A DNA stretch of 47,208 bases, taken from Fimbriimonadaceae bacterium (GTDB taxonomy: Bacteria; Armatimonadota; Fimbriimonadia; Fimbriimonadales; Fimbriimonadaceae). Under the pieces are notes generated by a model. It was not told where the DNA came from, did no database searches, and saw only the letters and a list, made by a program, of their open reading frames with translations. The stretch is taken from contig JANJUB010000172.1 of the NCBI GenBank assembly GCA_024710805.1, positions 1 to 47,208 of the forward strand. The letters run 5' to 3'. Below are positions 37,351 to 38,349 of this stretch, piece after piece. Position 1 is the first letter of the stretch, and each line of letters opens with the position of its first letter. The translations under genes were made by a program, and so were the position numbers.

Positions 37351-38127
37351 TCACCGGTTCTTCGTTAGTGAGAACAGCTCATCCTCACATGTGGAATCTA
37401 CGGGACATCCATCGGCCAAGACATCGCCGAGGATGTGGGGTCGGAAGTCGTCGCCATGAAAGCCGTACCCGAAGGGACCCGATCGAAGCGACGGACTCGC
37501 GCTCGAGGCGTGTCCGTCGGTCCACAAGAGGACGCCTCGACCGTTGTGGCGTCCCTGGAATCCCGGATAGTCCATGGAAGGCGGGTCGAGGTACGTGTTT
37601 CCCTCGAGGATTGGTGACGCGTAAGACCAGTTGTTCATGCGGGCGGCCGTCCCAAATGCGATGGTCCCGGCCGCATCTTCTAGTTGGCTCCCGTTGACCG
37701 GGACCGCAGTTTCTTCCCACGTCGGCGGCTCGTACGTACTCGGGGCCAAGTAGGCGTAGTTGTAGCCGTAGCCCGTCAGCCCCAACGCTGATCGGAGTCG
37801 ATTGGGAAACGAGGGATCTTGGGCAACGCCGTGGTTCTTGGTGTAAGGGTAGAGAAGCCCCTCTTCGGGGCGGAACACCACCCCGTCGAAACTGCCCCAC
37901 CAGTAGTAGGTTCGGTCGTTGCCCGGAATCCGCACCCTCATGAGGATGTCGTCGTGGTCGGCGTTGTACATCAGCCAAGCCGTGCCGATTTGCTTGAGAT
38001 TGGAGAGACTAACCGTCTTGCGCGCGGCTTCCTTCGCTTGGGCGAAGACGGGGAACAGGATCGCGGCCAAAATGGCGATGATCGCGATCACGACCAGGAG
38101 TTCGATTAACGTAAATGCTCGTTTCAT
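37351..38127 (-). CDS. Pseudopilin with H-X9-DG motif, downstream of a cobalamin riboswitch
   Basis: The 258-residue product begins [19 protein letters not shown] (Glu at +5) followed by [20 protein letters not shown], the standard DUF1559-type N-terminus. The motif [12 protein letters not shown] is the H-X9-DG signature. The globular part is rich in Tyr, Trp and Pro; three Cys are near the C-terminus. It is thought to be a minor pseudopilin of a type II secretion-like apparatus. The ATG at 38127 follows GAGG at 6 bases; the frame's upstream extension to 38175 lies in the leader. Expression is probably controlled by the riboswitch and by a hairpin that covers the ribosome binding site. The RND pump gene is convergent. 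Confidence 0.85.
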
Positions 38128-38133
38128 AGTTGA

Positions 38134-38149
38134 CCTCGTTTGTTCGAGG
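38134..38149 (-). promoter_or_regulatory. Hairpin hiding the ribosome binding site
   Basis: CCTCG-AACAAA-CGAGG on the minus strand pairs the GAGG Shine-Dalgarno (6 bases before ATG 38127) with an upstream CCTC. This is a natural expression platform for translational control by the riboswitch just upstream. Confidence 0.55.
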
Positions 38150-38179
38150 CCATCGGATGCGAGAAGAACCGCCAAGTTC

Positions 38180-38337
38180 GTGCCCGGGGCACGCTACCGG
38201 ACGCCCATGCTCGTAGGCGATAGCACTCTGCATTTCGCACGAAGTGGGCATTCGGGCTTTCACCGTTGCGGCACAGCGCCGGAGTTTCACCGGCTTCCCC
38301 CATTCTCAACCCCGTCACGACGACAGGATCTCCGTGT
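38180..38337 (-). promoter_or_regulatory. Cobalamin-type riboswitch
   Basis: The minus strand contains the conserved core GGGAAGCCGGTGAAACTCCG, continuing CGCTGTGCCGCAACGGTGA. This includes the GCCGG/CCGGC stem with its 7-base loop (38278-38294) and the CCGCAAC junction, as in B12 riboswitches. A 3' hairpin (GCTATCG/CGGTAGC, 38198-38224) occupies the place of the B12-box stem but its box sequence is degenerate. A second hairpin CGTGCC/GGCACG follows at 38180-38194. A TAGAAT -10 stands just upstream. The core is convincing by eye; the degenerate B12 box is the weak point. Confidence 0.75.
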
Positions 38338-38343
38338 GTCGCC

Positions 38344-38349
38344 ATTCTA
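38344..38349 (-). promoter_or_regulatory. -10 box for the riboswitch RNA
   Basis: TAGAAT on the minus strand would start transcription near 38337, right at the 5' edge of the riboswitch. No -35 is visible. Confidence 0.4.

Follow-up and report, generated by a model that had tools for sequence, protein, structure and literature searches.

Vitamin B12 exceeds the size that ordinary porins can pass, and the B12 importer characterised in diderm bacteria consists of BtuB and TonB, with mycobacteria having been studied separately. A pilin-like device that moves a large solute inward in diderms is the ComG-type competence pseudopilus, which takes up DNA through a secretin. In Bacteroides, the Btu accessory systems include BtuG, BtuH and BtuJ/DUF4465, which are encoded in riboswitch-controlled loci (PMC8941943, PMC13398666). 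B12 binding was shown biochemically for eight diverse DUF4465 proteins in a study that mentions neither pilins nor Armatimonadota (PMC13398666). The RNA family, the pilin family and DUF4465 are already known; for pilins under B12 control and for the operon presented here, the literature searched contains no description. This search covered full-text literature, with subscription papers and preprints outside its coverage, and found no prior report joining cobalamin riboswitches to DUF1559 pilins or pseudopilins, or to Armatimonadetes.

The window, by which we mean the whole 47,208-nt stretch of DNA that was analysed, contains a single riboswitch according to an Rfam scan, which belongs to the AdoCbl-II family RF01689. 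Its P3/P4/P5 core lies at 38239-38315 on the minus strand and matches the full model (positions 1-81) with 46.8 bits (E 2.8e-8; gathering score 36.5 bits), and the Cobalamin model RF00174 matches the same element at 38226-38349 on the minus strand with 33.6 bits (gathering score 31.5 bits). An earlier note on this DNA had proposed the core of a B12 riboswitch at 38128-38349 and suggested a check with the Rfam models; besides the matches themselves, the two motifs that it named were placed correctly, the GCCGG/CCGGC stem being P4 and CCGCAAC the L5 region. When the whole genome was searched (3.25 Mb, 207 contigs, 96% complete), RF01689 matched only at 38315-38239 and RF00174 only at the same place, so that this is the single B12 riboswitch found in the genome. 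Compensatory changes are present among relatives: two pairs of P3, one pair of P4 and five pairs of P13 show both-sided changes, which were counted in 43 cells compared to 10.2 in shuffles, and the covariation score was reached by none of 500 shuffles. Many of the relatives' switches have insertions in P6 or fit RF00174 better. The identity of the window RNA as a riboswitch is nearly certain, and it is classified as a riboswitch of the adenosylcobalamin type, located in the 5' UTR of a pseudopilin gene and predicted to bind adenosylcobalamin.

Downstream of the aptamer, the leader contains a hairpin that the earlier note had not named. It was read from the sequence at 38202-38219 on the minus strand (CGCCTA-CGAGCA-TGGGCG), its CGAGCA loop (38208-38213) is conserved in relatives, and the compensatory changes mentioned above affect each of the five aligned stem pairs. 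In cobalamin riboswitches, L5 is kissed by P13/L13 (PMC9600662), and because both its position and its behaviour match that element, the hairpin is assigned as P13/L13, with CGAGCA as the presumed kissing partner of L5. Closer to the gene, a 7-bp hairpin (GGCCUCG-AACAAA-CGAGGUC; 38132-38151, minus strand) is found in the predicted fold and pairs the Shine-Dalgarno sequence GAGG (38134-38137, minus strand), which lies 6 nt before the ATG of the pilin gene; the proposed sequestration of GAGG is thus seen in the prediction, and relatives have comparable hairpins near the start, their leaders showing on average 4.7 bp of start-proximal pairing over a Shine-Dalgarno-like sequence versus 1.7 bp in shuffles. 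We infer from these features that translation is controlled and that B12 acts as the repressor. An intrinsic terminator is not claimed as expression platform because the one terminator-like site in the leader (38187-38172) is within the shuffle expectation of 0.9. The search for an anti-sequestration partner yielded a candidate element, CUCGU, which is complementary to L13 but occurs in only 10 of 43 leaders compared to 3.9 expected; this is too weak for a general anti-sequester to be claimed, and no such partner was found. A -10 element had been claimed at the 5' edge of the region; the hexamer TAGAAT exists (38349-38344, minus strand), but neither a sigma-70 pair nor a supporting -35 was found there, and the promoter is not supported. 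In two relatives (L097:2147 and L119:1660), the L13 loop sequence CGAGC(A) is located at the start codon of the pilin gene, within the first codons in L097, and the kissing loop could therefore cover the start directly. Such an overlap is absent in the window; the first codons of its pilin gene (38109-38127, minus strand; ATGAAACGAGCATTTACG) hold AAA-CGAGCA-TTT, where the L13 loop sequence reappears together with a small stem, probably by chance since the Arg-Ala codons vary in relatives.

The gene directly downstream of the switch and on the same strand (37351-38127, minus) encodes a DUF1559-type pseudopilin of 258 amino acids, and the H-X9-DG motif claimed for it was confirmed near the C-terminus by reading the translation. 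It is the last gene on its strand, with an RND efflux operon convergent on it. The prepilin N-terminal methylation motif is recognised by PF07963 (N_methyl; 2.2e-7) and TIGR02532 (6.5e-8), and the match to PF07596 (DUF1559) is marginal, with 24.3 bits against a cut-off of 23.3 bits (3.7e-5) and covering residues 30-59 only. AlphaFold2 gives a confident model (pLDDT 91.9) that consists of a long N-terminal helix and a beta domain; the VIA-align 2 matches listed for the model are all pilins, the best solved structure being the type IV pilin PilA4 (6xxd) with a modest Z of 5.6. A B12-binding fold was sought as well, and Foldseek gave no significant match, so that such a fold is not proposed on the basis of these comparisons; the pilin might still bind B12. 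The second H-X9-DG gene of the window (15028) lacks a riboswitch in the whole-window Rfam scan, as had been noted before.

The earlier note had also suggested looking for the same RNA in front of such genes in related genomes, and the pairing of B12 riboswitch and pseudopilin turned out to be real and conserved. In 85 genomes of the window's family, for which the genes downstream of each switch were read, RF01689 and RF00174 together mark 70 places, and a weak place in G007, which reaches only 23.7 bits in Rfam and is sub-threshold while its core and L13 hairpin are legible, brings the number to 71. A DUF1559-type pilin follows 63 of the 71 switches, in 62 genomes, including a divergent pilin (G063) and a pilin interrupted by Ns (G074). 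The other eight switches precede nrdBA (G001), FecCD/BtuC-like permeases (G020, G023), a BtuB-type TonB receptor (G049), genes for secreted proteins (G065, G037) or a short ORF (G075, G076); as classical targets of B12 regulation, nrdBA, the two permeases and the receptor act as internal controls. When a profile was made from the C-terminal domain of clade A, it yielded 44 hits with E below 1e-60, the next hit being at 1e-22. Window-type orthologs with readable upstream DNA are preceded by the switch in 43 of 43 cases, which include G007 and G014, where the gene is split over two contigs; the 44th hit is cut by a contig end. The riboswitch-linked pilins fall into clades A, which includes the window pilin, and B, each of which forms one clade in the tree, apart from the unlinked paralogs.

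Several side observations were made in these genomes. In G001, a second AdoCbl-II riboswitch (C8:22910-22832; L062:3166 onward, reverse) precedes the class I ribonucleotide reductase genes nrdB-nrdA, which is the classical arrangement of a B12-independent isozyme. The short ORFs that follow the switch in L064 (G076:C24) and L066 (G075:C69) are 67-87 amino acids long and unassigned to a family (VLDCRIIRYTG...EEGYSLASIRWDGDRPELVFQR), and a distant relative with 29% identity is located at the end of the pilin operon of G010 (L114). The switch of L065 (G065:C47) precedes a gene for a secreted protein that resembles a beta-propeller, recalling BtuG, and has no Pfam match. A selenocysteine tRNA (RF01852, 73.7 bits) was found at L242:2823-2913 on the minus strand in G007, near an unlinked pilin paralog.

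The pairing is kept across much of Armatimonadota. GTDB genomes were scanned with the same pilin protein profile, disregarding the RNA, and the 54 loci obtained belong to Armatimonadota by record name, save a few generic or doubtful labels. Two loci have no upstream DNA; a switch is present in 47 of the other 52, recognised by the custom model in 38 cases, by RF00174 at 77-91 bits in eight and at 99 bits in L169. No switch was detected upstream of the remaining five pilin loci, which are from Chthonomonadales-type genomes (L166, L176, L181-L183). One riboswitch-pilin locus (L132, JADZEW010000007.1) is titled 'Methanoregulaceae archaeon SJ84', an organism name that is apparently wrong.

In the window genome and its congener, reading of the neighbouring genes showed an isolated pilin gene with neither DUF4465 nor any other B12-related gene beside it. 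In other relatives, the pilin gene of clade-B operons and of some clade-A operons is followed by genes for secreted PEP-CTERM proteins. DUF4465 (PF14717) occurs once each in 6 of the 85 genomes, in all six cases within a switch-pilin operon, and one of these proteins is homologous (E 5.6e-28) to D5EK51, for which a B12-bound crystal structure has been solved (9hmu). In Armatimonadetes SKYB128 (L155), an RF00174 riboswitch is followed by the pilin, btuF-like, cobU, cobT and cobS genes; the pilin and the next gene are separated by a gap of about 350 nt, and a single transcript is likely. B12 riboswitches also repeatedly precede two other families of secreted proteins (L074, L080, L092, L100, L102, L104 and others), including in loci without a pilin: proteins of 180-200 amino acids with the motif 'DIxxWAGSGxNxAxVVID...AWGYRWDG' and LIC_13355-like proteins of around 260 amino acids. 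Members of both are PEP-CTERM or otherwise secreted proteins and are candidates for new B12-binding proteins.

The CbiC step is common to both corrin pathways. As no CbiC match was found in any of the 85 family genomes, with positive controls, de novo synthesis of the corrin ring looks absent. The B12 inventory of the window genome, which rests on single-family searches, includes four genes with B12-binding domains, two of which are in loci that, judged by eye, look like methylmalonyl-CoA mutase, and one clear FecCD permease that is nearly equally close to the BtuC and FhuB models. Neither the window genome (G000) nor its congener G057 has a match to the TonB-dependent receptor family PF00593, for which E. 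coli, Caulobacter and Bacteroides served as positive controls. Since the window genome needs B12 and lacks detectable CbiC and TonB receptors, B12 must enter by a route other than the known one. An outer-membrane efflux protein is present, as are four secretins, one of them in a type II secretion-like locus with a GspG-like prepilin (subunits read by eye). Within the family, a TonB receptor was not detected in 61 of the 85 genomes, i.e., the window genome and 60 others, and 44 of these 61 carry a riboswitch-pilin locus, including the single-contig genomes G004, G046, G077 and G080. Conversely, TonB receptors are found in 18 of the 62 pilin-bearing genomes. The presence of the pilin hence does not track the absence of TonB receptors, and the pilin can for this reason only be hypothesised to replace BtuB.

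The earlier idea of a role in corrinoid uptake gains support from the DUF4465 and btuF-like/cobU/cobT/cobS neighbours and from the missing corrin synthesis and TonB receptors. The pilin probably helps to collect B12 because its conserved pairing with the switch includes many species without a detectable TonB receptor, and on the strength of the genomic associations we consider it likely that the B12-repressed pseudopilin is part of a corrinoid-acquisition system. With sufficient intracellular B12, the aptamer would bind B12 and the L5-L13 kissing loop would form; in the B12-bound state, the Shine-Dalgarno sequence would be held in the hairpin before the ATG and little pilin would be made, whereas the pilin would be produced when B12 is scarce. 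The pilin would then be the conserved core of an acquisition system in Armatimonadota that are unable to make the corrin ring, and is in some relatives probably co-transcribed with genes for secreted PEP-CTERM proteins, either B12-binding ones (DUF4465) or ones for which B12 binding is suspected. Most likely, it would be a component of a surface or trans-periplasmic pseudopilus that captures B12, which would then pass through the outer membrane to a FecCD/BtuC-type permease. The uptake role and its route are inferred, and for the route the options are a surface capture device, a pseudopilus that works through a secretin, or a device that secretes B12 binders. It is tempting to speculate, though only tentatively, that Armatimonadota import B12 independently of TonB by a B12-repressed pseudopilus that carries or contacts B12 and works through a secretin, while secreted binders of the DUF4465 type capture the vitamin.

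Other explanations of the locus have to be considered. The pseudopilin might be a part of a type II secretion system, in which case B12 starvation would raise the secretion of B12 binders or of corrinoid-freeing enzymes and the pilin itself would neither bind nor carry B12. The type II secretion-like locus with its secretin and GspG-like prepilin in the window genome and the secreted PEP-CTERM proteins that follow the pilin in relatives would fit this explanation, but the pilin is the constant partner of the switch, the secreted proteins are frequently missing, the window genome being one example, and the remaining type II secretion genes are outside the control of the switch; we therefore regard this possibility as rather unlikely. 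Adhesion is a common function of type IV pilin-like proteins, and B12 limitation could also be a mere cue for a change in lifestyle, such as attachment or aggregation near B12 producers, with the pilin as an adhesin. This would agree with a suggestion made for reactors in which Armatimonadetes occur, namely that flanking species obtain B vitamins from anammox bacteria (PMC7358590). Such a role would, however, leave the co-operonic DUF4465 proteins and the btuF-like/cobUTS neighbourhood unexplained, and appears improbable. Decay or a chance match, leaving the window RNA without a regulatory role, could be argued from the imperfect P1 pairing of the window copy and from the modest thermodynamic z-score of its leader (-1.6); these are opposed by the score of 46.8 bits, the conservation in the family and beyond, the covariation and the intact L13 hairpin. 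Decay is accordingly extremely improbable, and a chance match was rejected on the basis of the whole-model score, the conservation and the covariation.

Involvement of the pseudopilin in corrinoid acquisition would have consequences beyond this locus. B12 riboswitches have been retained in the family, with almost every one placed at the pseudopilin, although no CbiC and, in 61 of the 85 genomes, no TonB receptor was found; this points to an undescribed B12-acquisition system. If true, the pseudopilus route would be categorically new and would give diderm bacteria a second mode of importing micronutrients, based on a pilus. For DUF1559, a large family of pilins whose function is unknown, this provides a concrete and testable role, and the question how diderms without TonB obtain B12 becomes directly testable.

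Compared with the known systems, the window RNA shares with AdoCbl-II riboswitches (RF01689) the whole-model match, the conserved core, L5 and the conserved L13 hairpin, but precedes a pseudopilin gene instead of genes for transport, synthesis or isozymes. With the DUF1559 (PF07596) pseudopilins, the window pilin has the prepilin N-terminus and the C-terminal H-X9-DG motif in common; it differs from other DUF1559 pilins in that clades A and B are tied to B12 riboswitches, whereas paralogs in the same genomes are not. The control of surface proteins by B12 riboswitches is shared with the Btu systems of Bacteroides, and the operons of some relatives also encode DUF4465 B12 binders. In contrast to Bacteroides, the pilin operons do not contain a BtuB/TonB receptor, the pilin is the constant gene, and the secreted proteins are PEP-CTERM proteins rather than lipoproteins. 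The ComG-type competence pseudopilus provides a precedent for import via a secretin, which is used here as an analogy only, with no membership claimed, and the pilin system differs from it in its substrate and in its control by B12.
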